DNA from: Pseudomonadales bacterium
GTDB taxonomy: Bacteria; Pseudomonadota; Gammaproteobacteria; Pseudomonadales; Azotimanducaceae
NCBI GenBank assembly: GCA_019090385.1
Contig: JAHRWB010000017.1
Coordinates: 1-64,000 of the forward strand
Reading direction: 5' to 3'
Length of the DNA: 64,000 bases
Made by a program: the position numbers and the translations under genes. Below are positions 23,377 through 52,900 of this stretch, one piece after another. The notes under the pieces were generated by a model. That model was not told where the DNA came from and did no database searches. It worked only from the letters and a program-made list of their open reading frames with translations. Position 1 is the first letter of the stretch, and each line of letters begins with the position of its first letter.

Positions 23377-24045
23377 ATGTCAGATAATCAAGAAACCATT
23401 GCCATTTTGGGTGGCACAGGCGACCTCGGCACTGGCCTGGCCATTCGCTGGGCAAAAGCCGGTCATAAGATTGTAATAGGATCGCGCACGCTGGACAAAG
23501 CCCAGAACGCTGTTACCGAACTACAAAAAATCAGCCCTGACACCCAGGCACAAGCTATGATCAACCAGGATGCGGCGCACGCAGGCAATATCGTAGTGCT
23601 TACTGTCCCGTTTGCGCATCAACTCAGTACCCTGGAAAGCGTAAAAACCGCACTTAATGGAAAAATCCTGATTGATGTTACCGTACCGCTTGTACCACCA
23701 GCCGTTGGCAAAGTTCAGCTGCCGGAAGGTGGTAGCGCAGGTAAACGGGCCCAGGACTTGCTGGGAGAAGAGGTAATGGTCGTTACAGCTTTCCAAAATA
23801 TTGCTGCTCACTTACTTCAGCAAGATGTAAAAATTGAGTGTGATGTACTGGTTGCAGGCAATAAAAAAATTGCCCGGGATAAAGTGATAGAGCTCGCCGG
23901 ACAAGCCGGCATGGCTGGGTGGCACGCAGGCCCCATCGAAAACTCTGCTGCTGCAGAAGCACTCACTTCCATATTGATCCAGATAAATCGACGTCATAAC
24001 ATCTCGCATTCAGGCATAAAAATCATAGGTCAGTCCGATGACTGA
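23377..24045 (+). CDS. npdG: F420-dependent NADP reductase (NPD family)
   Basis: A 222-residue Rossmann enzyme that transfers hydride between NADP(H) and coenzyme F420. The dinucleotide motif GGTGDLGTGLA is at 12-22, with IGSR for NADP phosphate recognition shortly after. AFQNIAAHLL and CDVLVAGNKKIARDKVIELA match the family, whose length is typically 210-230. It has AGGAG 11 nt before the ATG and starts the run npdG-cofE-cofD-cofC-fbiC. It would keep the F420 pool reduced for F420-dependent enzymes. Confidence 0.9.
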   Translation: MSDNQETIAILGGTGDLGTGLAIRWAKAGHKIVIGSRTLDKAQNAVTELQKISPDTQAQAMINQDAAHAGNIVVLTVPFAHQLSTLESVKTALNGKILIDVTVPLVPPAVGKVQLPEGGSAGKRAQDLLGEEVMVVTAFQNIAAHLLQQDVKIECDVLVAGNKKIARDKVIELAGQAGMAGWHAGPIENSAAAEALTSILIQINRRHNISHSGIKIIGQSDD

Positions 24046-24134
24046 ACAGCTCAACATCTGCCCAAGACCCAGCCCCCGCGGGCGAATAAGCGCCTGCGAA
24101 CAAGCCATCTCTAATACCAGCTTAGGCACGTAAT

Positions 24135-24914
24135 ATGACCCAGCCGACTCTTACAATAATGCCGGTTCCCAATCTGCCCATGGTTTCTGAAGGGGATGAT
24201 CTGGCGGCACTGTTTATCCAGGCCCTGGAACAGGCTCATATAGAATTACAAGCTGGAGATATTCTGGTTGTCGCCCAAAAAATTGTCTCCAAAAGTGAAG
24301 GTCGCTGCGTCGATCTTGCAGAGGTAAGTGCTTCGCCAAAAGCCATTGAGCTGGCCAAAGAAGTAGAGAAAGACCCAAGAATTGTCGAACTCATACTCTC
24401 GGAATCTGAAGTCCTTATGCGCAAAAAACCCGGGATTTTGATTATGCGTCATAAACTGGGTCTGGTCGGTGCCCACGCCGGTATAGATCAATCCAATATC
24501 GATCATGGCCAGGGAGAATGCGCTCTATTACTACCACTAGACCCTGATAAATCAGCACAAAACCTGAAAGATACATTGGAAACCCTCACTGGTCTAAACT
24601 CGTCATCGGGCCTTGGCGTTATTATTTCCGACAGCATGAATCGCCCGTGGCGCCTGGGCACCGTGGGCTGCGCCATTGGCAGTGCAGGCGTTAGCGTATT
24701 GGACGACCAGCGTGGCGGCAAAGATATTTACCAGCGTGAACTCATTGTTACACTTATCAATCGTGCCGATGCCATCGCCACTGCTGCAACGCTGATAATG
24801 GGAGAAACAACAGAAAAAGTGCCTCTTGTTATAATTCGTGGCTTTGAGCTTGAGCAGAGTACAAGCACTGCACAAGACATAATAAGACCGTTAGAAGAGG
24901 ACTTGTTTTTGTAG
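24135..24914 (+). CDS. cofE: Coenzyme F420-0:L-glutamate ligase
   Basis: A 259-residue GTP-dependent ligase that adds the glutamate tail to F420-0. Family features seen are GDILVVAQKIVSKSEGR near the N-terminus, ILIMRHKLGLVGAHAGIDQSN mid-protein and DSMNRPWRLGTVGCAIGSAG. The protein ends with the ligase domain; there is no C-terminal nitroreductase-like domain as in mycobacterial FbiB, which reduces dehydro-F420. It follows npdG by 89 bp and precedes cofD by 30 bp. Confidence 0.95.
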   Translation: MTQPTLTIMPVPNLPMVSEGDDLAALFIQALEQAHIELQAGDILVVAQKIVSKSEGRCVDLAEVSASPKAIELAKEVEKDPRIVELILSESEVLMRKKPGILIMRHKLGLVGAHAGIDQSNIDHGQGECALLLPLDPDKSAQNLKDTLETLTGLNSSSGLGVIISDSMNRPWRLGTVGCAIGSAGVSVLDDQRGGKDIYQRELIVTLINRADAIATAATLIMGETTEKVPLVIIRGFELEQSTSTAQDIIRPLEEDLFL

Positions 24915-24944
24915 CCAATACACCTGGCTGCTCAATAGACAAAT

Positions 24945-25898
24945 ATGACTAAAAAGTATCTTGCTATCACTGGAGGTGTCGGGGGAGCCAAACTTGCATT
25001 GGGCTTGAGCAAACTTCTCACTCCTCAACAACTGGATTTTGCGGTTAATACCGCAGACGATTTTGTACACCTTGGCATGAATATCAGCCCTGATATTGAT
25101 ACTTTGATGTACACACTTTCAGGTGAAAGCAATGCCGAGCAAGGCTGGGGACGCAGAAATGAAACCTGGCAATTTATGGATGCGCTCAAACAACTTGGAG
25201 AAGATAGCTGGTTTAATCTGGGTGACAAAGACCTATCCATTCATATCACTCGCACACAAAAACTTAAAGCAGGGCAAAACCTCACAGATATCACGCAAAA
25301 CCTGTACCGTCAGTTTGCGGTTAATTTTCCTGTATGGCCCATGACTAACGATTCAGTCAGTACATTTGTAGAAACCGAAAATGGTGACCTTCCCTTTCAA
25401 GACTATTTCGTAAAACAACAATGTGCACCCAGAGTGAGCGGTTTTAAATTTAAAGGCATAAAATCGGCTAAGCTAAATCCAGGTATCCGCAAACTGCTAC
25501 TAGACCCGGATCTGACGGGTGTGGTGCTGTGTCCGTCAAATCCTTATGTCAGTGTAGACCCCATGCTGGCCTTGCCCGAGATGCGGACTCTACTAAAAAC
25601 TTGCGCCGCCCCGGTAGTCGCTATAACGCCAATCATTTCGGGTCAGGCTATAAAAGGCCCTACCGCAAAAATGATGCAAGAATTAGCCATGCCCAGCACC
25701 GCACACACCGTGGCTCGGCATTATTCAGATTTTCTGGATGGCTTTGTACTCGATTCCGGGGATATCAAGCTGTCCAGTACCATTGAGGAACTCAATATCA
25801 GTACTGTTACCGCTCAAACACTCATGGTAACGTTACAAGATCGCATTCAGCTGGCAAAAGCCACCTTGGATTTCATTCATAAACTACGTCGCTCCTAG
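24945..25898 (+). CDS. cofD: 2-phospho-L-lactate (or related) transferase CofD
   Basis: A 317-residue enzyme that joins the GDP-activated phosphoacid made with CofC to the deazaflavin Fo, giving F420-0 or an analogue. The opening ITGGVGGAKLALGLSKLL (from residue 9) and NTADDFVHLGMNISPDIDT are the family's nucleotide- and Fo-binding motifs, and NPYVSVDPMLALPEMR is conserved near residue 200. Length is typical. Part of the cof run; 78 bp separate it from cofC. Confidence 0.95.
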   Translation: MTKKYLAITGGVGGAKLALGLSKLLTPQQLDFAVNTADDFVHLGMNISPDIDTLMYTLSGESNAEQGWGRRNETWQFMDALKQLGEDSWFNLGDKDLSIHITRTQKLKAGQNLTDITQNLYRQFAVNFPVWPMTNDSVSTFVETENGDLPFQDYFVKQQCAPRVSGFKFKGIKSAKLNPGIRKLLLDPDLTGVVLCPSNPYVSVDPMLALPEMRTLLKTCAAPVVAITPIISGQAIKGPTAKMMQELAMPSTAHTVARHYSDFLDGFVLDSGDIKLSSTIEELNISTVTAQTLMVTLQDRIQLAKATLDFIHKLRRS

Positions 25899-25976
25899 TA
25901 TGTAAGGATCATTATGTACGGACTGCGTGGGACTTTACGCTTTTAGCGTGATGATAACCCTTAGGGGGATATAACT

Positions 25977-26648
25977 GTGTGGGCGCTGGTACCATTAAAA
26001 ATTCTGGATCAGGTTAAAAGCAGGCTCGCACCGGTTCTCACAGCTGAAGAGAGACGTGGCCTGGTCTTGGCTATGCTAAAAGATGTTCTTCAGGTCCTTT
26101 GCCAATCCCAAGAGCTCAGCGGCGTATTACTCGTATCCCGTGAGCCCCACATTAAATCCCTGCTACCCGACCATGCCACACTCAACTTTTGGCAAGAACC
26201 CGTTGGTTGCGATTTATCACAAACTATAACCGCCGCCTCGAACTACCTCGCTACTACCTTTCAGGCGACGGGTGTCATGATTGTTCCTGCGGACGTACCC
26301 TTAATCAGCCGAGCCGATATCCAGCAACTATTAAGGCGACATAACAAAGTTTCCCTGGTAGCGGATCATCAATCTCGGGGTACAAACTGTCTGATATGCA
26401 GCCCACCCAATAATATGCCAGTCCTTTATGATGGGCAAAGCTTTAAACCCCACCTGAAAACGGCCCGAAACCTGGGCCTGCATCCGCTGATTGCAAAAGC
26501 CGACTCTCTTAGCCTGGACATAGATACACCCGAGGACCTCGTACATCTTATTTATCGTGTTGATAAATCTCATACACGCCAATTTATAAACAATGCAGGC
26601 ATCGCATCTCGCGTGTTGGCCCATCAAAATAAAACTCTGACAGGATAA
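25977..26648 (+). CDS. cofC: Phospholactate/phosphoglycerate/PEP guanylyltransferase CofC
   Basis: A 223-residue nucleotidyltransferase that activates a three-carbon phosphoacid with GTP for CofD. ALVPLKILDQVKSRLAPVL at the N-terminus matches the family's nucleotide-binding start, and VMIVPADVPLISRADIQ the metal-binding DxP region. The start is GTG at 25977 with a strong GGGGGAT 6 nt upstream. Homologues use 2-phospholactate, PEP or 3-phosphoglycerate; the substrate cannot be assigned by eye. fbiC follows after 13 bp. Confidence 0.92.
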   Translation: MWALVPLKILDQVKSRLAPVLTAEERRGLVLAMLKDVLQVLCQSQELSGVLLVSREPHIKSLLPDHATLNFWQEPVGCDLSQTITAASNYLATTFQATGVMIVPADVPLISRADIQQLLRRHNKVSLVADHQSRGTNCLICSPPNNMPVLYDGQSFKPHLKTARNLGLHPLIAKADSLSLDIDTPEDLVHLIYRVDKSHTRQFINNAGIASRVLAHQNKTLTG

Positions 26649-26661
26649 TCCAACAGTAATT

Positions 26662-29151
26662 ATGTTGACACAGACACTTTCATTAGACCGATACCTGGCC
26701 GGTTCACTGCCCACTGAAGCAGAAGCACTCGCGCTGGCAAATAATCACGATACCGCTGCACTCACCGAAATTGCAGCCCGGTTACGAGATAATGGACATC
26801 ACAATGTCATCACCTATTCAAAGAAGGTGTTTATCCCTCTCACTTATTTATGCCGGGATGTTTGCCACTACTGTACTTTTGCTCAAACACCCAAGCACAT
26901 CGAATCGCCATTTATGCCCCCGGAACAGGTGCTCGCATCAGCCCGTGAAGCTGCTACGCTGGGTTGCAAAGAAGCACTTTTCACACTGGGTGAAAAACCT
27001 GAACTACGTTACAAAGCCGCGCGCCAGGCCCTGGCTGAAATGGGCTATTCCAGCACACTGGAATATCTGTTCGATATTGCCGGACAAGTGTTCAGGGAAA
27101 CCGGCCTGTTACCCCATTTAAACCCGGGTAATATGGACCAAGCCGAAATTACGCAGTTAAAAAAGGTTTCCCCCTCGATGGGTATCATGCTGGAATCTGC
27201 AGCAACCCGACTCACCGAAAAAGGCATGCCGCATTATGGCTCTCCCGACAAAGTTCCTGCCACACGCCTGGAGACAATTGCATTGGCAGGCAAAAATCAG
27301 GTGCCGTTTACGACCGGCATTCTCATTGGCATAGGTGAAACCCGGCGCGAACGTATTGAGTCACTTCTGGCTCTGCGCAAGCTGCATACGGAATATGGCC
27401 ACATTCAGGAAATTATCGTGCAGAATTTTCGTGCCAAACCGGGTACCAAAATGTCACAGGCACCTGAACCAGATTTGGATGAACTGCTATGGAGCATAGC
27501 TGTTGCTCGCATTATTTTTGGTGCCAACATGAGCATTCAGGCACCGCCAAACCTCAGCCCAGGCGTATTGCCCCAACTTATTCAAGCCGGCATTAACGAC
27601 TGGGGCGGGGTATCACCGGTAACGCCTGATTTTGTTAACCCAGAAGCACCCTGGCCTCACCTGGATGAACTGGCGAGGGAGACCTCTGCTTCAGGAAAAC
27701 TATTGCAAGAACGGCTCACTATTTATCCCGACTATATAAAAACAGAAGGCTGGCTCGACAAAGACTTGCAGACCCAGGTAATGCACCTCAGTGACGCTTC
27801 CGGGTATCCGCGAATCGACAACTGGTCTCCTGGAGAAGACGATTCTCTACCTCGGCGAGAACTAGACCTGATTCAAAAGAAACCCGCGCATATATCCGTG
27901 GATATAGCACAAATTCTATCGCGCGTAACAGACCACAATATGCTGCTCAATGAACAGGAAATAGTACGCTTGTTTAACGCACGGGGAGATGACTTCAGCG
28001 CAGTGACACAAGCCGCCAACGAGATTAGAAAGTCGGTAAACGGCGATACTGTTACCTTTGTGGTCAATCGGAATATTAACTATACCAATGTCTGTTACTT
28101 CAAATGTCAATTTTGCGCTTTCTCCAAAGGCAAACTATCGGAAAACCTGCGCGGCCGTCCTTACGATCTAAGCGCGGATGAAATTGCCCGACGAGTAAAA
28201 GAAGCCTGGGCACGTGGCGGCACTGAAGTTTGTATGCAAGGTGGTATTCATCCTGAGTACACCGGTTCGACCTACCTTGACATACTAAAAACGGTGAAAC
28301 AGGCAGAACCTGAAATGCACGTTCATGCATTCTCGCCCTTGGAAGTATGGCAAGGCGCAGCTACATCCAATATGTCATTGGAAAGGTATCTTAGCGAACT
28401 AAAAAGTGCCGGCCTGAATACCCTTCCCGGCACCGCCGCCGAGATTCTGGACGATGAGATTCGAGACATCATCTGTCCAGATAAAATCAATACAGAGCAG
28501 TGGCTAGAGGTGATGGAAACAGCCCACAAAGTAGGCTTTAAAACCACCGCCACTATTATGTATGGCCATGTTGAATCACCCCAAAACTGGGCCAGACACC
28601 TGATACAAATCCGCGACCTGCAAATAAAAACCGGCGGTTTTACCGAATTTGTACCGCTGCCCTTTGTACATATGGAAGCACCCATGTATCTGAGAGGCAA
28701 AGCACGCAAAGGACCGACCTTTAGAGAGTCAATACTGATGCATTCTGTTGCACGCCTGGTTCTCCATCCCCACATCTCAAACATCCAGGCTTCCTGGGTA
28801 AAACTTGGCTACGAAGGGGTTATCGCCTGCCTCAGTGCAGGATGCAATGATCTGGGTGGCACTCTCATGAACGAAAGTATCACCCGAGCAGCCGGGGCTG
28901 AACACGGGCAAGAAACCTCTCCCCAGGCAATGATCCAATTGATTGAATCAGCGAACCGAATTGCCAGGCAACGCAGCACTGATTATGGTGAAGTAAGCCA
29001 GCCAATGAAAGAAGTTGCGCTTGCCGCCGGCGCATTAAGTGAAGCAATAAATACGCCTACAAAAAAATATGAGCGAAAGCGCAAAGGACCCTTGCTGCGT
29101 AACGCACCCCAGAATTTAATTCCTGTCAAATACGACAACCGCGGTTCATAA
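26662..29151 (+). CDS. fbiC: Fused Fo synthase (CofG-CofH), radical SAM
   Basis: An 829-residue two-module radical SAM enzyme that makes the deazaflavin Fo from tyrosine and 5-amino-6-ribitylaminouracil. The N-terminal CofG module has the 4Fe-4S motif C64-x3-C68-x2-C71 (TYLCRDVCHYCTF); the C-terminal CofH module has C478-x3-C482-x2-C485 (VCYFKCQFCAF). Both Cys triads are intact and the order CofG-CofH is that of FbiC in actinobacteria; archaea and cyanobacteria usually keep two genes. It ends the F420 run, 16 bp from the convergent MFS gene. Confidence 0.95.
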   Translation: MLTQTLSLDRYLAGSLPTEAEALALANNHDTAALTEIAARLRDNGHHNVITYSKKVFIPLTYLCRDVCHYCTFAQTPKHIESPFMPPEQVLASAREAATLGCKEALFTLGEKPELRYKAARQALAEMGYSSTLEYLFDIAGQVFRETGLLPHLNPGNMDQAEITQLKKVSPSMGIMLESAATRLTEKGMPHYGSPDKVPATRLETIALAGKNQVPFTTGILIGIGETRRERIESLLALRKLHTEYGHIQEIIVQNFRAKPGTKMSQAPEPDLDELLWSIAVARIIFGANMSIQAPPNLSPGVLPQLIQAGINDWGGVSPVTPDFVNPEAPWPHLDELARETSASGKLLQERLTIYPDYIKTEGWLDKDLQTQVMHLSDASGYPRIDNWSPGEDDSLPRRELDLIQKKPAHISVDIAQILSRVTDHNMLLNEQEIVRLFNARGDDFSAVTQAANEIRKSVNGDTVTFVVNRNINYTNVCYFKCQFCAFSKGKLSENLRGRPYDLSADEIARRVKEAWARGGTEVCMQGGIHPEYTGSTYLDILKTVKQAEPEMHVHAFSPLEVWQGAATSNMSLERYLSELKSAGLNTLPGTAAEILDDEIRDIICPDKINTEQWLEVMETAHKVGFKTTATIMYGHVESPQNWARHLIQIRDLQIKTGGFTEFVPLPFVHMEAPMYLRGKARKGPTFRESILMHSVARLVLHPHISNIQASWVKLGYEGVIACLSAGCNDLGGTLMNESITRAAGAEHGQETSPQAMIQLIESANRIARQRSTDYGEVSQPMKEVALAAGALSEAINTPTKKYERKRKGPLLRNAPQNLIPVKYDNRGS

Positions 29152-29167: not shown

Positions 29168-30418
29168 TTATTCCCCTGCCACGACCAAGGTTTCGTTACC
29201 AACTTCAGGGAGCTTTTTCACTGAGAGTATCAAAGGCAGGATCAGCACCGCAAAAATCAGCAAACTGCCAAAGGCAAGCATCCACAAGGTACTTTGCAAC
29301 CCCCATGCATCCATTGAATAACCTACAATTGGACCGGTGATTACAAAACTGCCCCGAAAGCCAAAACTTGCCAACGAATTTGCGGTAGCTCGATACTTAC
29401 TTTCAACTCTTCGATTAAGCGCCTCACGCAATACAACCAAACCAAAACCACGACTGACAAAAAACAGGATAGCTGCAACAAATCCACCTAAAACAGAAAA
29501 TCCAGCCAGGCCAATATACCCCAACACCGGTAATACACCGATCAGTACCAATAGCGCTTCAGCACCCAAGCGATCTTCAACCGCATGAGCGTAGCGCCCG
29601 GCAATAGCAGCAATCAACATCAGAAGCCCCCACAGATAACCAAAATTCTGTACCGGCACGCCCTGATCCAGCCACAGTCGCTGCAGTATCCACACCGCAT
29701 AAAAAGTGGTTAAACTCCATATACACAAAGACAAAAATACCTGCCTCAGTAAGGCATCACCCAATAACAAACGCCTCAGGATAACGCCGAAATTTTGAAC
29801 ATGTCCCGACGCAACCAGCCTTTCAACCGGAGGCTCTACCAATGTGAGTGAGATCAGAAAGGGCATCCAACCCACAGTAACCTGTACATATATTGCTGCA
29901 TCAAAAGACCAGAATAACAATATTATGCTGCACACGATTGAAGCCACAGCTTCCGATGCGGTATGCACAGTATAGAGTCTGCCCACAACTTTTCTTTGTC
30001 TGCGAGCACTTCTCCCCAGAGCAATTTCGCTATCATACAACAAGGCCAAATCAGAACCTGAAACGAGGCTAACGCCAATACCAAGCCCAATCTCGAATAG
30101 CATCAGGGAAGTAAAAGAATCGGCAACCAGCAACAGGCTATGCCCCACTCCCAAAAACAATGCCCCAACAACCAGAGTCCGTTTTCGCCCCAGCACGTCC
30201 GCCAAGTACCCGGAGGGGATTTCCATTACCAGAATCACCGCAGCAAAAACAGCCTGAAGTAGAAACACGTCCTGGATATCTAATCCACGAGTCTCAAAGA
30301 AAGGCACAAGAATAGGCATAATAACGAGAAATACACCACAGAAACCCAACAATAGTGTCTTACTCACGTTACCCTTCAGGCGGGTCCGCTCTGCCTCAGA
30401 GATTATTCTTGTTTGCAT
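29168..30418 (-). CDS. MFS transporter
   Basis: A 416-residue integral membrane protein with about 12 hydrophobic segments. The segment GYLADVLGRKRTLVVGALFLG is the conserved loop-2/3 signature of the major facilitator superfamily. The frame opens at a TTG at 30430, but GGTGGAT stands 5 nt before the ATG at 30418, which I take as the start. The substrate is unknown. It is convergent with fbiC, 16 bp apart, so not part of that operon. Confidence 0.88.
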   Translation of the reverse strand: MQTRIISEAERTRLKGNVSKTLLLGFCGVFLVIMPILVPFFETRGLDIQDVFLLQAVFAAVILVMEIPSGYLADVLGRKRTLVVGALFLGVGHSLLLVADSFTSLMLFEIGLGIGVSLVSGSDLALLYDSEIALGRSARRQRKVVGRLYTVHTASEAVASIVCSIILLFWSFDAAIYVQVTVGWMPFLISLTLVEPPVERLVASGHVQNFGVILRRLLLGDALLRQVFLSLCIWSLTTFYAVWILQRLWLDQGVPVQNFGYLWGLLMLIAAIAGRYAHAVEDRLGAEALLVLIGVLPVLGYIGLAGFSVLGGFVAAILFFVSRGFGLVVLREALNRRVESKYRATANSLASFGFRGSFVITGPIVGYSMDAWGLQSTLWMLAFGSLLIFAVLILPLILSVKKLPEVGNETLVVAGE

Positions 30419-30430
30419 TTTATCCACCAA

Positions 30431-36839: not shown

Positions 36840-37850
36840 CTACCGCAAAGAAAAATTCTGTGCTGAAAACGCCTCAAACGTGCGCTGCATACCTGATGAT
36901 CCCGGATCACCAAGGGGCGCAATAATATGCGTATGTATGCCCATTTGAGCGTGTGCCAGAATGCGTTGCTGGCACTCATCCGCAGTGCCTATTATCGCTA
37001 TTTCATCCACCAGCTCATCACTTAACGCGGCGGAAGTTTTAGTGCGGTCTTTGGCGGCCCAACCTTCAGTGATGGTATCGGCTGCATCCTCATACCCTGC
37101 CCAGGCCAAAAATTTGTTATATACCGGGTTGGCATAATACGGAGCAAAAGCCGCCCGAAATAAACGCCTCCCTTCCGCTTTATCATTGGTAACCAATACC
37201 ATTGCCCGGTTAACAACTTCTACTTCTTTCCAATCCTTACCCGCCCGCTCAGCTCCAATGCGTACATGTTCCATCATTTTCGGCAAGGCACGTTTTGGCC
37301 ACAAGTTGAAAATTACGCCATCGCCGATTTCCGCGGCCATTTCGATCATTTTTGGGCGCAGTGCAGCAAGATACAGCGGGGGCACTGACACTTCAGGCAG
37401 GGGAAATTGCCGATAGCCATGACTGCTTAAACCGGCCAAATCGAAATCCGACTTTTCTCCTTTAAGCATGGATCTCACCATTATTGCGGTATTCTTTACC
37501 CGCGAAAGCGGTTTATCCATAGACAAACCATGCCAGCCGGTCATCATCGTCTGGCTCGAAGAGCCCAGACCCATGACAAACCCCCCTTGAAGAATCTGCC
37601 CTAAGCTATATGCCGTAGCGGCCAGTACTGCCGGAGTACGAGTGAAGACAGGTGTAACAGCGACGCCAATCCGGATATGATCTGAAACAGAACCCAGCGC
37701 CGCGGCAGTCGTTAATGCATCCGGAGCCCCCCCATCACTAAACCAGGCATCCTGATATCCATTGTCTACCGCCCAGGAAACTCTGGCTACTGAATCAGCA
37801 ATAGCGGGCCCAGCGGGCAAGGTAACGGCCATTCGTTTAATAAGGGACAT
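36840..37850 (-). CDS. LLM-class (luciferase-like) oxidoreductase, probably F420-dependent
   Basis: A 336-residue TIM-barrel protein of the luciferase-like monooxygenase superfamily. DAWFSDGG, the active-site region GGFVMGLGSSSQTMMTGWHGL and PPLYLAALRPKMIEMAAEIGDGV are typical of the F420-using branch. AAGGAG precedes the ATG at 37850. It probably oxidises or reduces an organic substrate with F420 as hydride carrier; the substrate is unknown. F420 use is supported by biosynthesis genes in the same window but not proven. It is divergent from a kinase-like gene. Confidence 0.82.
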   Translation of the reverse strand: MSLIKRMAVTLPAGPAIADSVARVSWAVDNGYQDAWFSDGGAPDALTTAAALGSVSDHIRIGVAVTPVFTRTPAVLAATAYSLGQILQGGFVMGLGSSSQTMMTGWHGLSMDKPLSRVKNTAIMVRSMLKGEKSDFDLAGLSSHGYRQFPLPEVSVPPLYLAALRPKMIEMAAEIGDGVIFNLWPKRALPKMMEHVRIGAERAGKDWKEVEVVNRAMVLVTNDKAEGRRLFRAAFAPYYANPVYNKFLAWAGYEDAADTITEGWAAKDRTKTSAALSDELVDEIAIIGTADECQQRILAHAQMGIHTHIIAPLGDPGSSGMQRTFEAFSAQNFSLR

Positions 37851-40742: not shown

Positions 40743-41780
40743 TTACAGTATTTCCTCAGCTAACAGATCCAGCACTTCTTTATTACCACCAGCCACCAAC
40801 ATTGCCGATACGTGACCTTGGCTTCCCGCCTGTTTCCAGCGTTGGAGGCGCTCACGAATTCGCCCTGCCGGGCCGACCAAATGACATGCATCGATAAGCT
40901 CGTCGGGAACCGCCGCCATAGCCTGGTCTTTTTTCCCAGCCAGATACAAATCCTGAATTTTCACAGCTGCATCGCCAAATCCAAGCCGTGTGGCGTAATC
41001 CGTATAGAAATTTTTACCTCGCGCACCCATACCACCAATGTACAGTGCCATGTTGCCTCGAATGGGCTTCATACACTCCTGCACATTGTCACCCATTACC
41101 ACGGTTACGAAAGGGGTAATCTGAAAATTCATTAATGATTTATCACCCACAGCGGCAAAACCCTTTTCTATGGGTTCTTGAAACACAGAATACTGCTCAG
41201 GATCCATCCATACCGGAAAAAAACCATCTGCCACTTCTGCTGCAGCCTGCACACCCCTCGGTGTAATCGTTGCAGCATAGACAGGAATAGGTGTATCACA
41301 GTGCAAAATGCTCTTTAGCGGTTTTCCCAAACCCGTCGAACCCGGGCCCATATATGGCAGCTGATACTGATCACCATCAAAGGTGGTTGGCGCTTCCCTC
41401 GCGAAAATCTGCTTCATAATTGCAATATACTCACGCAGACGAGTCACTGGCTTGCCATATGGAACCCCATGCCAGCCTTCAACTACCTGGGGTCCTGATG
41501 CGCCTAAACCGGCAATAAAGCGATTGCCTGATAAATGTGCCAGACTCATTGAAGTCATTGCAGCCATAGCCGGGCTTCGAGCAGGCATCTGCATAATTGC
41601 CGTGCCTACTTTTATCTTACTGGTATTGGCAAGAATCCATGTTGCCGGTGTAATGGCATCAGAACCGTAGGCTTCTGCAGTCCATACAGAGTCATATCCC
41701 AGCTTTTCTGCATAGAGTATTTGATCCATTGGCAATACCAGTTTGGAACCTGAATAACCCGCAACAATACCTAATTTCAT
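40743..41780 (-). CDS. LLM-class F420-dependent oxidoreductase (Rv3520c-like)
   Basis: A 345-residue TIM barrel. MKLGIVAGYSG at the start, GLGASGPQVVEGWHGVPYG near residue 92 and PVYAATITPRGVQAAAEVADG match the actinobacterial-type F420 LLM family (TIGR03559, Rv3520c-like, as I recall it). GGAGA stands 6 nt before the ATG. The substrate is unknown. This is the second such enzyme in the window besides 36840-37850, and their sequences are distinct. Confidence 0.87.
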   Translation of the reverse strand: MKLGIVAGYSGSKLVLPMDQILYAEKLGYDSVWTAEAYGSDAITPATWILANTSKIKVGTAIMQMPARSPAMAAMTSMSLAHLSGNRFIAGLGASGPQVVEGWHGVPYGKPVTRLREYIAIMKQIFAREAPTTFDGDQYQLPYMGPGSTGLGKPLKSILHCDTPIPVYAATITPRGVQAAAEVADGFFPVWMDPEQYSVFQEPIEKGFAAVGDKSLMNFQITPFVTVVMGDNVQECMKPIRGNMALYIGGMGARGKNFYTDYATRLGFGDAAVKIQDLYLAGKKDQAMAAVPDELIDACHLVGPAGRIRERLQRWKQAGSQGHVSAMLVAGGNKEVLDLLAEEIL

Positions 41781-46639: not shown

Positions 46640-46657
46640 TTCGTTCTGCACATTTTA

Positions 46658-46748
46658 TTTCCTGAGGGGCGGTCCCTTGGCTTATGCCATCGACCTGAGA
46701 AGCACCCTTTGAACCTGATCCGGATAGTACCGGCGGAGGGATAGGATT
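46658..46748 (+). promoter_or_regulatory. TPP riboswitch (THI element)
   Basis: The conserved cores are unmistakable: GAGGGGCGG at the 5' side, CTGAGAAGCACCC, then CCTTTGAACCTGATCCGGAT followed by AGTACCGGCGGAGGGATAGGA. TCCT (46660-46663) can pair with AGGA (46743-46746) to close P1. GGATAGGA near 46739 can alternatively pair with TCCTTATCC at 46768-46776, a possible expression switch. It sits directly upstream of the TonB receptor, which would be repressed when thiamine pyrophosphate is plentiful. Confidence 0.95.
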
Positions 46749-46816
46749 CAGTTTCTAGCTACCCCACTCCTTATCCGGGTCTCTTTAACCAGATGTATGT
46801 TAATGAGGCTCATAAC

Positions 46817-48976
46817 ATGAAGAATTTAATCCCCAGCTCCAGCTGGCTGGCCTACACCTTGGTAATGACCCTGCAAGCAACAGAAACCACCAGCTATGCG
46901 CAGGACCTAAGGCAAGATAACCCTGATCCAATAGAAGAGATTCTAGTAACAGCGGAATTCCGAGAACGTTCGCTATTAAAAACAGCCAATAGCACCAGCA
47001 TTCTCAGCGCTGATACCATAGCGCGCACCCGCGCCAGCCACCTGTCACAGCTGTTAAACCAGGCCCCAAACGTCAACTATGCCAGTGGAGCATCTCGTGG
47101 CCGTTTCATACAAATACGAGGCGTTGGTGAGCGTAGCCAATTCATCGAGCCACTTAATCCATCTGTTGGAATCCTTGTAGATGGCATGGACTTAAGTGGC
47201 TTAGGTGGTGCAGCAACTACGCTGGACCTGGCACAAGTGGAGATATTGAGAGGCCCACAAGGCACACTATTTGGTGCCAATGCATTGGCCGGCCTCATTC
47301 AAATGAAATCCAATGAACCAACATCAACGCTAACAGGAAATGTAGAAGCCAGTGTTGGCGATGATCAACTTCAGTCTATTGCCGGCGTTATAAGCGGTCC
47401 GCTTTCAGAATCGGCAGGGTATCGCCTGGCTATCCTAAACCACCGCTCTGATGGGCATATACGCAATACCTTCCTCAATCGAGACGATAGTAATAATTTG
47501 GATGAGCTCAGTGCCCGAGGCAAACTAAACTGGCAGGCAAATGAAGGCCTTTCCTTCAGCGCGACCGGATATGTCATCGACATAGACAACGGTTATGACG
47601 CATTTTCATTGGACAACACCCGCTCTACTTTGTCAGACCAACCTGGCTATGATCGCCAAAAAAGCTGGGCTCTGTCATTGAACAGCCATTGGAGTGCAAA
47701 CCCAAACTTTGATGTTGTCGGCCAATTCAGCATTGTAGAAAGTGATTTGGCCTACGCTTTTGACGAAGATTGGAGTTTCAGTGATATATGTGCTGGCACA
47801 CTTTGTGATGGCTGGGCCTATTCATCTTTTGACAGTTATGAACGCGATCACTCAAACACCAGTATTGATATCCGCATGATCTCCAACCAGGACCTTAACC
47901 TGTTTAGCTATTCAACTGCCTGGGTAGTGGGTGCCTATGCACGCAACGAAAATGTGGATCTGACCCGAGAATACACTTTCGCCAGCCAGGATTTTCTGAG
48001 CGACTATGATACACATAACCAGGCTATCTACACCCAGCTCGATGCCCAACTCTCCGATACTTTCAACCTGTCCGGTGGGTTACGATTAGAGCGGCGCAGT
48101 GCCAAATACGATGATAACAATACCGTCTCCCATGAAAATACAGACTATTTCTGGGGTGCACATTTGACACTTGAATACCATACTGACGACAATAAATTGT
48201 TATACGGTAAGGTCTCCCGAGGTTATAAAGCGGGCGGCGTAAACAGTAACCCCGACCTGAGCACATCATTCAGAAAATTTGAAGAAGAGCGAATGTGGAA
48301 TCTTGAAGCAGGATTGAAGGGCGAGTACTTTGATGACAAGCTACAAACTCAAATCTCCATTTTTTACCAGTTTCGCAGAGATATGCAGGTTAAACAGTCT
48401 TTGCTCGAACCCATCTCCGGGGATAGCTGTCCCTGCAGTTTTGAAGATTTCCTAAGCAATGCTGCAAAAGCTTCAAACTACGGAATGGAGCTGGAGGTGA
48501 ATTGGTCAGCAAACGAAATTTTGCATCTGTATGGTAGCCTGGGCTTGCTCGAAGCCGAGTTTAATCGATTCGAAAGTTTCTCCCATGTTGATGCCAATCC
48601 CATAACCGGCCAGCCCGTCAACCTCGATGGCCGCAAACAGGCCCATGCACCCAGGTACCAGTTTGCCTTTGGCAGCGAATTGCGCGTACGTGAAAACCTG
48701 GCTCTGTTCGTAGAGCTGGAAGGTAAAGATAAATTCAAGCTTTCTACCCGTCATGAGGAGCAGAGCCGTTCATATACTTTGCTAAATGCCAGCATAACTT
48801 ACTACCCGGAACATTGGGAAATATCTTTGTGGGGACGAAACCTAGGCAACAAAAAGGTAATCGAACGCGGATTTGGCAGTTTTGGAAACGACCCACGCAA
48901 GTTCTATACAACCGAACCCTATTACCAGTACGGGGCACCACGTGTGCTTGGCGTATCCGCCAAATACACCTTCTAA
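46817..48976 (+). CDS. TonB-dependent outer-membrane receptor, probable thiamine transporter
   Basis: A 719-residue gated porin. The ATG at 46817 has TGAGG 8 nt upstream and gives a signal peptide (MKNLIPSSSWLAYTLVMTLQ); an upstream ATG at 46793 is less likely. A TonB-box-like IEEILVTAEFRER precedes the plug (IRGVGERSQFIEPLNPSVGI, EILRGPQGTLFGANALAG), then a barrel ending in the terminal Phe of LGVSAKYTF. The TPP riboswitch upstream implies that the ligand is thiamine or a precursor; TonB receptors under THI elements have been proposed before as thiamine transporters. No other thiamine gene is nearby. Confidence 0.93.
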   Translation: MKNLIPSSSWLAYTLVMTLQATETTSYAQDLRQDNPDPIEEILVTAEFRERSLLKTANSTSILSADTIARTRASHLSQLLNQAPNVNYASGASRGRFIQIRGVGERSQFIEPLNPSVGILVDGMDLSGLGGAATTLDLAQVEILRGPQGTLFGANALAGLIQMKSNEPTSTLTGNVEASVGDDQLQSIAGVISGPLSESAGYRLAILNHRSDGHIRNTFLNRDDSNNLDELSARGKLNWQANEGLSFSATGYVIDIDNGYDAFSLDNTRSTLSDQPGYDRQKSWALSLNSHWSANPNFDVVGQFSIVESDLAYAFDEDWSFSDICAGTLCDGWAYSSFDSYERDHSNTSIDIRMISNQDLNLFSYSTAWVVGAYARNENVDLTREYTFASQDFLSDYDTHNQAIYTQLDAQLSDTFNLSGGLRLERRSAKYDDNNTVSHENTDYFWGAHLTLEYHTDDNKLLYGKVSRGYKAGGVNSNPDLSTSFRKFEEERMWNLEAGLKGEYFDDKLQTQISIFYQFRRDMQVKQSLLEPISGDSCPCSFEDFLSNAAKASNYGMELEVNWSANEILHLYGSLGLLEAEFNRFESFSHVDANPITGQPVNLDGRKQAHAPRYQFAFGSELRVRENLALFVELEGKDKFKLSTRHEEQSRSYTLLNASITYYPEHWEISLWGRNLGNKKVIERGFGSFGNDPRKFYTTEPYYQYGAPRVLGVSAKYTF

Positions 48977-49002: not shown

Positions 49003-50349
49003 CTAATCAACCATTTTTGCAGGGGCTAACAATTCAATCCAGTGTTTCACCGGCACCCGGGTGCCGGACTGGATATGTGACTGACATCCAATGTTTCCAG
49101 TTACTATAAAATCAGGGTCATGCTCTGACAAGGCAGCCAATTTATTGTCTCTAAGCTTAAAGCTCAGTTCCGGCTCGAGAATGGAGTAAGTCCCGGCTGA
49201 ACCACAACATAAATGACTATCTCTACAGCTGAGCAATTCATACCCAGCCCTTTCCAGCAATTGCTCCACAGTCGAAGTTATTTTTTGACCATGTTGTAAT
49301 GTACAAGGCGACTGCCACGCGATTCGCCGGGTTCCAAATCTGGCAGTAAAATCTATATCCAGCGAGCTAAGGTATTCAGATACATCTAGCACCTTGCTCG
49401 AAAGGTAGGTAGCCAGACCTGCGTGATGAGAGCTATCTTTAAGCAGCCTGTCAAAATCTTTCACGGTAACCCCACAACCACTTGCAGTGGAAATAATGGC
49501 ATCGACTTTGGCGAATTTATAGGCTGCAAATTTATCCCCCGCATTGTTTGTATTCGAGCCAGACATAGCGAAAATAGTCTCTCCAGAACGAGTTTCCGCA
49601 GCATAGGAAGATTCTGGTAAAGCATCCAGAACCTGAGTGAGAGAATCAACCAGCGTCGACATAGTCTGGGTAGCCTGCTGCATTTCACCCAAGTGAAGTG
49701 CTAGCGAACCACAGCAACCACCAACCGCAATAGCCTCTATGCCAACGCTGCCGAGCAACTCCGTCAACCAATAATTTACCTGAGGTGTAACCACACTCTG
49801 CACACAACCGGTAAGCAAAATAACCTTTTTCCCATGTCCATTCGCTGACAGGTCGACAATATGTTTTTTTTCAATACGCTTTTTACCAACACGCGGTAAC
49901 GCCCCTCGTAGCTTGCTCGGCAACAACCATCGCACAGTACCAGCCAGACGTAACAATACGCGCATCCGTTTTGCATGAGGCACAACATGTAACAACCAGG
50001 TTCTGATAAAGCGATTTTTAAAACTTCTTTTTGTTTTTGGCTGAATTATTTCTCGGCCAATTTCCAATAATTCGCCGTATGCAACACCCGAAGGGCAGGT
50101 TGTCTCGCAAGCGCGACAAGTCAAACATCGGTCAAGGTGTTTTCCAATAACATCGCCCACCACGTTATCTTCCAATACCTGCTTAATGAGGTAAATCCTG
50201 CCTCTCGGACCATCCAGCTCATTACCTAACAGTTGATAAGTGGGGCAAGTTGCATTACAGAACCCACAATGCACACATGAGCGCAAAATTTCTTCCGCCC
50301 GCGTTCCATTCTTCGTATTGGAAAATTCGGATGCTATATGTGTTTCCAC
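49003..50349 (-). CDS. glcF: Glycolate oxidase iron-sulfur subunit
   Basis: A 448-residue protein with two 4Fe-4S motifs, CVHCGFCNATCP and CLTCRACETTCP, and two Cys-rich CCG domains (VGGCCGSLAL and HLCCGSAGTYS). With GlcD and GlcE it oxidises glycolate to glyoxylate, feeding electrons to quinone. It shares one nucleotide with glcE, so the set is translationally coupled. It is somewhat longer than the E. coli protein (407). Confidence 0.95.
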   Translation of the reverse strand: METHIASEFSNTKNGTRAEEILRSCVHCGFCNATCPTYQLLGNELDGPRGRIYLIKQVLEDNVVGDVIGKHLDRCLTCRACETTCPSGVAYGELLEIGREIIQPKTKRSFKNRFIRTWLLHVVPHAKRMRVLLRLAGTVRWLLPSKLRGALPRVGKKRIEKKHIVDLSANGHGKKVILLTGCVQSVVTPQVNYWLTELLGSVGIEAIAVGGCCGSLALHLGEMQQATQTMSTLVDSLTQVLDALPESSYAAETRSGETIFAMSGSNTNNAGDKFAAYKFAKVDAIISTASGCGVTVKDFDRLLKDSSHHAGLATYLSSKVLDVSEYLSSLDIDFTARFGTRRIAWQSPCTLQHGQKITSTVEQLLERAGYELLSCRDSHLCCGSAGTYSILEPELSFKLRDNKLAALSEHDPDFIVTGNIGCQSHIQSGTRVPVKHWIELLAPAKMVD

Positions 50350-51449
50350 TAAAACTCCCGATACATAATATTTGTGTTTAGTATGCCAGCAGGATCAAAG
50401 GCCTTTTTTATTCGCATATGGTATTTCATAATTTCCGGGCTAAGTTTGGATATATACAACTGCTCAGCGCTTTGGGCAGCATAAGCATCGTCAGAATATG
50501 TTGGATAACAACGGACACTGCCACCTGACTCATTGGCACTTAATAATATGCGCTGTATTTGAATTTTATTTTTTACCTCTGTTTTCAACCATCTCAGTGA
50601 GCCGGCCCATTCGGTCATCCACTCACCCGGTAGGTCAGGATATTTTGCTGCGGCAGGAACACTGAAACGCCATACGGTGTTTCCTGTAAAAAATTTGTGC
50701 TTGTGGTCCCTGATACCCGTCCAAAAACTGGCACCATTTTCAATTTTATGACCACCAATTTTTTTGATAGCACGCAACAAACCTGCTTCACTGCCAGATA
50801 AACGAATATAAAGTCCATTCTCATAATGACTGGTGGCCGTCACCGGATTCGCAGAGCGCATTAACTGCAACACATAGTCCAGTGCCGCATCCCGGTCGAG
50901 TTCAAGTCTGATCGTTTCAGTATGAACCGGACTCGGTAAAAGTCGCACGCTGGCACTCAATATCAGCCCTAAAGTCCCAAAGGAACCGGTCATGAGACGA
51001 GTCACATCGTAACCAGCAACATTTTTTAATACCTTGCCGCCAAATTTTAGTCGTTGACCCATACCATTTATGATTTCCATACCCAGAGCAGCATCTCTTG
51101 CTGAACCCAACCAAGCCCTGCCAGGTCCAGAAAGCCCACTGGCCAGTGCCCCGCCCAATGTACCCAAACCATTATATTGTGGAGGATCAAAGGGCAAAAA
51201 CTGGTTATGGCTGGCTAATGCGCTACTCAATTCATCCAGACGAGTTCCCGCCCGCGCGGTTATCACCAGTTCCTCCGGCCTATAATCCAGTATGCCCCGG
51301 TGTTCCACTACCGATAGAATATCGCCCTTTACCTCCTTTCCCAGAAATTTTTTGCTGCCTGTCCCACACAGACAAAGCGCGCATTTCTTTTCGTACGCCT
51401 CAACTAGCGCACCGACCAGCCGTGCAGAATCGTCATATTCCTGCATCAA
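50349..51449 (-). CDS. glcE: Glycolate oxidase FAD-binding subunit GlcE
   Basis: A 366-residue FAD_binding_4-type subunit. PPQYNGLGTLGGALASGLSG and GRAWLGSARDAALGMEIING are its flavin-binding motifs. It lacks the larger catalytic C-terminus of GlcD, as usual for GlcE. The ATG overlaps the glcD TGA (ATGA) and its stop overlaps glcF. Confidence 0.95.
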   Translation of the reverse strand: MMQEYDDSARLVGALVEAYEKKCALCLCGTGSKKFLGKEVKGDILSVVEHRGILDYRPEELVITARAGTRLDELSSALASHNQFLPFDPPQYNGLGTLGGALASGLSGPGRAWLGSARDAALGMEIINGMGQRLKFGGKVLKNVAGYDVTRLMTGSFGTLGLILSASVRLLPSPVHTETIRLELDRDAALDYVLQLMRSANPVTATSHYENGLYIRLSGSEAGLLRAIKKIGGHKIENGASFWTGIRDHKHKFFTGNTVWRFSVPAAAKYPDLPGEWMTEWAGSLRWLKTEVKNKIQIQRILLSANESGGSVRCYPTYSDDAYAAQSAEQLYISKLSPEIMKYHMRIKKAFDPAGILNTNIMYREF

Positions 51450-52900
51450 AATCTTTCCAGTTCAGGAAAAGGTAATACACCGCCGTGCACGTGCATGCCA
51501 CCCAGCTCAGAGCAGCGGCTTAGAGTTGGAATAGCTTTACCAGGATTTAACAGACTTTTTTCATCAAATGCTGCTTTGATGCGATGAAACTGTTCAATTT
51601 CCAGCGGGGAAAACTGCACACACATCTGATCCAGTTTTTCTATACCCACACCATGCTCACCTGTAATCGTGCCCCCTACAGCAACGCAGTACTCCAATAT
51701 TTTGCCCCCCATTTCCTCCGTTTGTTTCAACTGCCCCTCTATATTTGCATCATATAAAATAAGTGGATGCAAATTCCCATCGCCGGCATGAAACACGTTA
51801 GCCACCGCTAGATCGTATTTTTTAGACAGCGCAGCAATTTCACCTAATACCCGGCCCAGTGCGCTACGTGGAATCGTCCCATCCATGCAATAGTAATCCG
51901 GTTGAATTCGACCCACAGCAGGAAAAGCGGATTTACGCCCTTTCCACATCAACTCCCGTTCTTCGTTGTCCTTGGACTCCAACACCTGATAAGCACCATG
52001 GCGCAGCATCACCTCTCGCGCCAACTTACTGTCTACGTCTACATCTTCGGCATTCCCATCCAGCTCACAAAGCAAAATCGCTTGCGCGTCCACTGGATAC
52101 CCTGCATGCACAAATTGCTCTGCCGCTTCAATGGCCAATTTGTCCATCATTTCCATTCCCGCAGGAATAATGCCCTCGGCAATAACCCGGCTAACAGCAT
52201 TACCCGCCTGTTCCACGCTGTTAAATGCCCCGAGTAAAAGTTGTTTCACTGGCGGTATTGGCAACAAACGGACAATTACCTCGGTAACCACGCCCAACAT
52301 ACCTTCCGAACCTATCATCAATGCCAGTAAATCATAGCCCGGACTATCCAGCACCATACCACCTAACTTGAGTTCTTCACCTTCAATGGTGAGCACCGTC
52401 AGGCCGATGACATTGTGCACTGTCAAGCCATACTTAAGACAATGTACCCCGCCAGCATTTTCAGCCACATTGCCGCCAATGCTGCAGGCAATCTGGGAAG
52501 AAGGATCCGGGGCATAGTACAATCCATACCCGGCTGCCATTTCACTAATAGCTAAATTCCGCACACCCGGCTCAACACGCGCAATGCAATTATCAACGTC
52601 AATCTCAATGATGCGATCAAACCGGGACATCACCAGTAGAACGCCATCTTCCAATGGCCGTGCACCGCCGGATAAACCTGTCCCGGCTCCCCGTAATACA
52701 ATAGGCGTTTCGGTTGCTCGACAAGCGCTGAGTATACTCAAAAGCTGTTTACGACTGGTCGGTAACAAAACCAGTCCAGGCACTTGTTTAATCGCGGTAA
52801 GCCCATCGCTTTCGAAGGGCTTCCTGGCTTCTTCTCGTGTCAAAATTGCATCAGCAGGCAACACGGATTTTAAAATCGGTAGCAACTCAGTAGAAATCAT
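51446..52900 (-). CDS. glcD: Glycolate oxidase catalytic subunit GlcD
   Basis: A 484-residue FAD-linked oxidase, close to the 499 of E. coli. The flavin motif is VLRGAGTGLSGGARPLEDGV, followed by GGNVAENAGGVHCLKYGLTV; the C-terminal substrate domain contains NVFHAGDGNLHPLI and ITGEHGVGIEKLDQM. It is the first gene of glcD-glcE-glcF. No GlcC-type regulator is visible nearby. Confidence 0.96.
   Translation of the reverse strand: MISTELLPILKSVLPADAILTREEARKPFESDGLTAIKQVPGLVLLPTSRKQLLSILSACRATETPIVLRGAGTGLSGGARPLEDGVLLVMSRFDRIIEIDVDNCIARVEPGVRNLAISEMAAGYGLYYAPDPSSQIACSIGGNVAENAGGVHCLKYGLTVHNVIGLTVLTIEGEELKLGGMVLDSPGYDLLALMIGSEGMLGVVTEVIVRLLPIPPVKQLLLGAFNSVEQAGNAVSRVIAEGIIPAGMEMMDKLAIEAAEQFVHAGYPVDAQAILLCELDGNAEDVDVDSKLAREVMLRHGAYQVLESKDNEERELMWKGRKSAFPAVGRIQPDYYCMDGTIPRSALGRVLGEIAALSKKYDLAVANVFHAGDGNLHPLILYDANIEGQLKQTEEMGGKILEYCVAVGGTITGEHGVGIEKLDQMCVQFSPLEIEQFHRIKAAFDEKSLLNPGKAIPTLSRCSELGGMHVHGGVLPFPELERF

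Follow-up and report, generated by a model that had tools for sequence, protein, structure and literature searches.

A very probably functional, long-resident coenzyme F420 operon in the gammaproteobacterial family Azotimanducaceae

F420 is an unusual redox cofactor, familiar above all from methanogenic archaea and from the bacterium that causes tuberculosis. The Gram-negative bacteria Oligotropha carboxidovorans, Paracoccus denitrificans and Mycetohabitans rhizoxinica have stand-alone CofE, CofC and CofD proteins, and in betaproteobacterial producers Fno is the F420-reducing enzyme reported (PMC8498797, PMC8764529). Both features recur in the locus described here, an npdG-cofE-cofD-cofC-fbiC operon at positions 23377-29151 (+) of the window, that is, of the whole 64,000-nucleotide stretch that was analysed (contig JAHRWB010000017.1, assembly GCA_019090385.1), which comes from a Pseudomonadales bacterium of the family Azotimanducaceae. 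Unlike the other Gram-negative cases, the F420 genes are here a family-wide trait with many linked genes of the luciferase-like (LLM) family. From gene content, motifs, phylogeny, the conservation of gene order and the joint occurrence with enzymes that use F420, we conclude that this is very probably a functional, long-resident F420 operon, catalysis and F420 production in cells being predicted from the family membership of its proteins.

The npdG-cofE-cofD-cofC-fbiC operon

All five open reading frames are intact, the gaps between them measure 89, 30, 78 and 13 nt, and each of the five proteins exceeds its NCBIfam equivalog cut-off. The first gene, npdG/fno (23377..24045, +), encodes a predicted NADPH-dependent F420 reductase of 222 aa (TIGR01915, 191.9 bits, cut-off 149.8); its closest solved structures, 5n2i and 1jax, are both F420:NADP oxidoreductases (Fno), and the nucleotide-binding GGTGDLG motif is found in the alignment to 5n2i in addition to the Fno equivalog score. 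The product of cofE (24135..24914, +) is a predicted F420-0:L-glutamate ligase of 259 aa (TIGR01916, 248.4 bits, cut-off 180.65), which stands alone without the C-terminal reductase domain of FbiB and can be aligned over its full length with CofE of Archaeoglobus (2phn). It is followed by cofD (24945..25898, +), for an FO phospholactyl/phosphoenolpyruvate (PEP) transferase of 317 aa (TIGR01819, 269.6 bits, cut-off 257.45) that is homologous to 3c3d and 6uvx and keeps the metal-ligand Asp (FbiA D45/D57). The GTG-started cofC (25977..26648, +) encodes a C3-acid guanylyltransferase of 223 aa (TIGR03552, 145.9 bits, cut-off 105), with 7p97 as its best PDB match and with K14, D106, D181 and D183, residues known from 6bwg and 7p97, conserved. 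Finally, fbiC (26662..29151, +) encodes a fused CofG-CofH FO synthase of 829 aa (NF006687 for bifunctional CofGH, 1154.9 bits, cut-off 1018), which is also above the cut-offs of TIGR03550 and TIGR03551.

Two radical S-adenosylmethionine (SAM) Cys triads can be read from the sequence of FbiC: C64-x3-C68-x2-C71 in the CofG part (26851..26874, +) and C478-x3-C482-x2-C485 in the CofH part (28093..28116, +). The locus has the parts that mark the bacterial F420 pathway, a fused FbiC with two CxxxCxxC motifs together with CofC, CofD and CofE equivalogs carrying their catalytic residues. The original prediction that the five genes lie together with their key motifs intact, both radical SAM triads included, agrees with these scores and residues.

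By their family assignments, the five proteins would act in sequence. FbiC would form FO from tyrosine and 5-amino-6-ribitylaminouracil; CofC would activate a phosphorylated C3 acid with GTP and pass it to CofD, which would join the C3 acid to FO; CofE would then add gamma-linked glutamates. NpdG, the evident route of F420 reduction, would reduce the cofactor with NADPH, and the resulting F420H2 would serve numerous F420-dependent oxidoreductases of the LLM family as well as Ddn-like (PF04075) reductases.

Distribution and descent

Across the window's family, CofD or CofG was found in 69 of 72 sampled genomes, 68 of them by an operon-type CofD and one more (G057) by CofG. The three genomes with neither are G043 (57% complete), G068 (77%) and G069 (97%, fragmented). 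The last of these, in 220 contigs, encodes an F420-type LLM protein (1.5e-141) and PF04075 proteins; either its operon lies in an assembly gap, or biosynthesis has been lost and the cofactor is taken up. Outside the family, where the order was surveyed with one genome per family, F420 genes were present in 15 of 45 sampled families. On a wider scale, CofG was above cut-off in 4/399 sampled Pseudomonadota genomes and CofC in 15/369 genomes of the class Gammaproteobacteria, which bears out the earlier statement that proteobacterial F420 is sparse. Only CofC matches above cut-off were used, as TIGR03552 at E<=0.001 over-calls (305/369 Gammaproteobacteria). Counts of PF01933 (CofD) are blurred by a separate set of matches with higher scores (266.7, 261.8 and 228.1 bits) and by matches in E. 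coli and other control genomes, which we take to be YvcK/YbhK relatives. None of the five operon genes is present in the loci retrieved around such matches, so that G068, G079 and G098 were left out of the F420-positive set, and F420-negative genomes were rechecked with CofG.

The npdG-cofE-cofD-cofC-fbiC order is kept in nearly all loci of the family and in about 12 other families of the order. In a tree of FbiC, the proteins of the order group together as a single clade (83 rows, SH-aLRT 99), to which the actinobacterial and Thermomicrobium sequences do not belong; nested in this clade are a plasmid copy from Paraburkholderia sp. PGU19 and three loci of another gammaproteobacterial family. 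The trees were quick ones (LG+G4, SH-aLRT only) with several long reference branches, and their reach stops short of the deepest origin. The nested gammaproteobacterial clade that the original prediction had named as a sign of long-term residence is thus found with FbiC. The F420 genes are here a core, old and mostly vertically inherited trait of the family. The order-level clade also holds the Paraburkholderia plasmid copy, which suggests that F420 genes were exported from this lineage or a close one and not recently imported into it. The earlier suggestion that proteobacterial cases come from transfer finds support in alpha- and betaproteobacteria, in which F420 cassettes are carried on conjugative and mobilizable plasmids, but not in the present lineage, with its 69 positive genomes and its order-level FbiC clade. 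It is plausible that the genes were acquired by an ancient transfer, into the ancestor of either the order or the Pseudomonadota.

Use of F420

PF00296, the LLM family, is matched 31 times in the genome that contains the window, many of the matches being in F420 subfamilies, and this genome also encodes three PF04075 (Ddn-like) proteins. When ten of its proteins were scanned singly, seven LLMs were above an F420 subfamily cut-off and two PF04075 proteins passed TIGR00026, a model for deazaflavin-dependent oxidoreductases; 30 proteins scanned by E-value yielded further members of TIGR03617, TIGR03842, TIGR03564 and TIGR03560, with no glucose-6-phosphate dehydrogenase (G6PDH)-type model reaching E 1e-45 in that scan. 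One of the seven is encoded in the window (40743..41780, -) and is a predicted LLM class F420-dependent oxidoreductase of the Rv3520c type (TIGR03559, 367.2 bits, cut-off 335). A further LLM oxidoreductase (36840..37850, -; PF00296), probably an F420 user, scores just below the cut-off of TIGR03841 (200.5 against 213.65 bits) and reaches only 57 bits with the F420-dependent G6PDH model (cut-off 420). The best solved relatives of both proteins are F420-dependent Mer. In 57 related loci, homologues of the protein at 36840..37850 are encoded next to the F420 operon. An LLM gene lies directly upstream of npdG in a same-genus genome, whereas the LLM gene nearest to the operon in the window is 7.7 kb downstream.

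In the order outside the family, TIGR03559 was above cut-off in 11/15 F420-positive and 0/30 F420-negative genomes (p=1.3e-7) and PF04075 proteins occurred in 10/15 and 0/30 respectively (p=9e-7), p-values that are optimistic because the genomes are related and not independent; the pattern has no exception among the F420-negative genomes. This optimism weighs against our conclusion, and so do three other points. The number of true F420 users is uncertain, as some NCBIfam F420-LLM families, TIGR03619 for example, are broad and were presumably defined in part by their co-occurrence with F420 genes. The searchable literature yielded no F420 measurement in any member of the family. An FbiB-type dehydro-F420 reductase (TIGR03553) was above cut-off in 0/51 genomes, the best score in the window's own genome being 40.4 against 249.55 bits. 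Even so, the CofC/D/E/G/H set, the F420:NADP reductase and the many predicted F420-dependent enzymes make active use of F420 in this lineage likely, as had been proposed from the pathway and its reductase, and across the order the predicted F420 enzymes occur only together with biosynthesis.

Two other accounts of the operon were weighed against long residence and active use. Plasmid-borne cassettes in other proteobacteria, together with the actinobacterial origin proposed for some Gram-negative cases (PMC8764529), would make a recent acquisition from actinobacteria or archaea conceivable; we consider this, or contamination of the assembly, highly improbable. The family-wide presence and conserved gene order speak against a recent arrival, and a recent transfer from actinobacteria is rejected on the strength of that presence and of the FbiC tree, in which the sequences group with relatives in the order and not with actinobacteria. 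Contamination, which the original prediction had named as a possible flaw, is excluded for practical purposes, because the contig extends over 85,804 bp in a draft genome (3.57 Mb, 229 contigs) that is 99.35% complete and 0.4% contaminated, because the GC content of the operon genes (0.46-0.50) is that of the window and composition is flat across the operon, and because the operon and the major facilitator superfamily (MFS) gene downstream of it recur in G001, a genome of the same genus. The nearest named contigs belong to Cellvibrionales metagenome-assembled genomes, and others are filed as Gammaproteobacteria. The genes might instead persist with FO or trace F420 being used only marginally, as reported for Oligotropha and Paracoccus, alphaproteobacterial producers being known for trace F420 only (PMC8498797). 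We judge this quite unlikely, given that the operon is full-length and conserved and that a large predicted set of F420 enzymes strictly co-occurs with biosynthesis.

The C3 linker, neighbouring features and known systems

The original prediction also spoke of a full pathway. CofC, CofD, CofE, CofG, CofH and the reductase are indeed present, and the word 'complete' covers FO synthesis, the CofC and CofD steps and glutamylation; beyond these it is too strong, since no FbiB-type reductase was found and since no protein has been assigned in any organism to CofB, the activity that yields 2-phospho-L-lactate (PMC8498797). With PEP as the C3 acid, a reduction of the dehydro-F420 intermediate is required; the FbiB-type reductase domain, for which no TIGR03553 match was above cut-off here, defines the PEP route of the mycobacterial type and not the pathway as a whole, and a diverged nitroreductase might still act as dehydro-F420 reductase. 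In Mycetohabitans CofC the residue S162 sets linker choice, the mutants S162E, S162Y, S162G and S162A all favour 2-phospholactate (2-PL)/PEP, and M91L and C95L lower the use of 3-phosphoglycerate (3-PG); M. mazei CofC has Tyr-Gly at this site and prefers 2-PL (PMC8764529). The linker acid in the present system is most likely 2-PL or PEP, as judged from the Leu and Ile that the window CofC has at the positions of M91 and C95 and from its D152-G153-x-S-F loop, which resembles Y-G-x-S-F of M. mazei.

Where Mycetohabitans CofC has S162 and FbiD of M. tuberculosis has G163, the window has Asp, followed by Gly (D152-G153, 26430..26435, +), and the sister genome has Asn. Among 94 loci, 35 have Asp and one has Asn, all from a single subclade that makes up about half of the family, the window included, and 58 have Gly, as do the plasmid-borne proteobacterial and actinobacterial references with a readable site. 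Members of the Asp/Asn group fall together as a single clade in the trees of CofC (SH-aLRT 99) and CofE (92), but three changes are required on the FbiC tree. Within this subclade, no more than 31 of the 223 positions of CofC are conserved in 35 or all 36 members, and these include D152 and G153 as well as the active-site residues. Clade-specific columns are most frequent in CofE (6.3%) and least in CofD (0.6%). Two of the clade-typical CofE columns, N169 and P171, belong to N169-R170-P171 (24639..24647, +), the equivalent of Archaeoglobus CofE G153-C155, a segment that lies over the deazaflavin ring on its front face (PMC10861534).

These observations raise the alternative that the operon makes F420 with a non-lactate linker, 3-PG or another C3 phospho-acid, through the Asp/Asn CofC. 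Its appeal lies in the replacement of Gly by Asp/Asn-Gly in 36 loci of one CofC clade, in the retention of these two residues in 35/36 and 36/36 sequences at a mean protein identity of 47%, in the clade-specific residues on the deazaflavin-binding segment of CofE, and in the lack of an FbiB-type reductase above cut-off in 51 genomes, the background supposed for the rise of 3PG-F420 (PMC8764529). A 3PG-F420 producer was nevertheless rejected as the leading reading: the diagnostic Ser/Thr is replaced by Asp (Asn in the sister), and instead of Met91 with a small residue (Cys/Ala) at 95 the window has Leu and Ile, much as in the mutants with reduced 3-PG use. Tyr at the site does not keep M. mazei CofC from preferring 2-PL, and CofD, the filter of the intermediate, has hardly any clade-specific columns. 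A strict coupling of CofC and CofE is weakened by the occurrence of CofE N169 in loci with G-type CofC. The data on the Glu, Tyr, Gly and Ala mutants suggest that Asp/Asn CofC would still work on 2-PL/PEP. A non-lactate linker is therefore unlikely, and we give correspondingly little credence to its wider form, in which about half of the family, the window included, would use a linker other than 2-PL/PEP that is selected by Asp/Asn CofC and accepted by a co-diverged CofE.

Downstream of the operon and convergent with fbiC lies the MFS transporter gene (29168..30430, -; PF07690), which adjoins the operon in 14 loci, the Asp/Asn CofC subclade accounting for 12. A gene for a PF04013 protein stands upstream of npdG in 20 loci (for example L150:6038-6664), all with G-type and none with D-type CofC; we take the protein to be a putative SAM-dependent RNA methyltransferase, known mainly as the archaeal tRNA methyltransferase TrmY. 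Elsewhere in the window, a full-length thiamine pyrophosphate riboswitch (46655-46758, +; 69 bits) is located 34 nt upstream of a TonB-dependent receptor gene (46793-48976, +), which suggests a thiamine-regulated outer-membrane uptake receptor. Three adjacent genes at 49003-52900 (-), for two FAD-binding oxidase subunits and an Fe-S CCG protein, presumably correspond to a glycolate oxidase GlcDEF set.

The pathway is mostly of an ordinary, known kind, in an under-described lineage. A 2021 review of F420 leaves gammaproteobacteria unmentioned in its text, and a literature search, whose scope did not extend to the survey of F420 genes published in ISME J in 2017, returned no paper joining F420 with Halieaceae and nothing relevant under other Cellvibrionales names; we make no claim to be the first to report F420 genes from gammaproteobacteria. 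Three features seem under-described: the presence of the genes in nearly every genome of the family, the linkage of the operon to LLM genes for F420-dependent enzymes, and the subclade with Asp/Asn in CofC. No longer a curiosity scattered over the Gammaproteobacteria, F420 becomes a trait that is almost universal in one family, and its production and use are directly testable because the family includes single-contig genomes, probably from cultured strains. Asp/Asn and Gly at the linker-setting CofC residue form a natural contrast within one family that has no recognisable dehydro-F420 reductase, a contrast that bears on the bacterial origin of the lactyl linker, and the conserved LLM linkage points to dozens of candidate F420-dependent enzymes that would be useful for biocatalysis.

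Compared with the mycobacterial FbiA/FbiB/FbiC/FbiD system, the operon shares the fused FbiC and has homologous CofD and CofC, but its CofE is without the C-terminal dehydro-F420 reductase of FbiB. With the archaeal CofC/CofD/CofE of M. mazei and A. fulgidus it shares a stand-alone CofE, and the x-G-x-S-F loop and the guanine-loop D-L of the window's CofC resemble those of M. mazei; the operon differs in the fusion of CofG with CofH and in a low overall similarity of CofC. Mycetohabitans differs in having Ser at the CofC site and no known F420-dependent enzymes. Plasmid PPGU19_p3 of Paraburkholderia sp. PGU19 (NZ_AP023183.1, L195) has an identical five-gene order and an FbiC within the Pseudomonadales clade, although its cassette is carried on a mobilizable plasmid and has Gly at the CofC specificity site.

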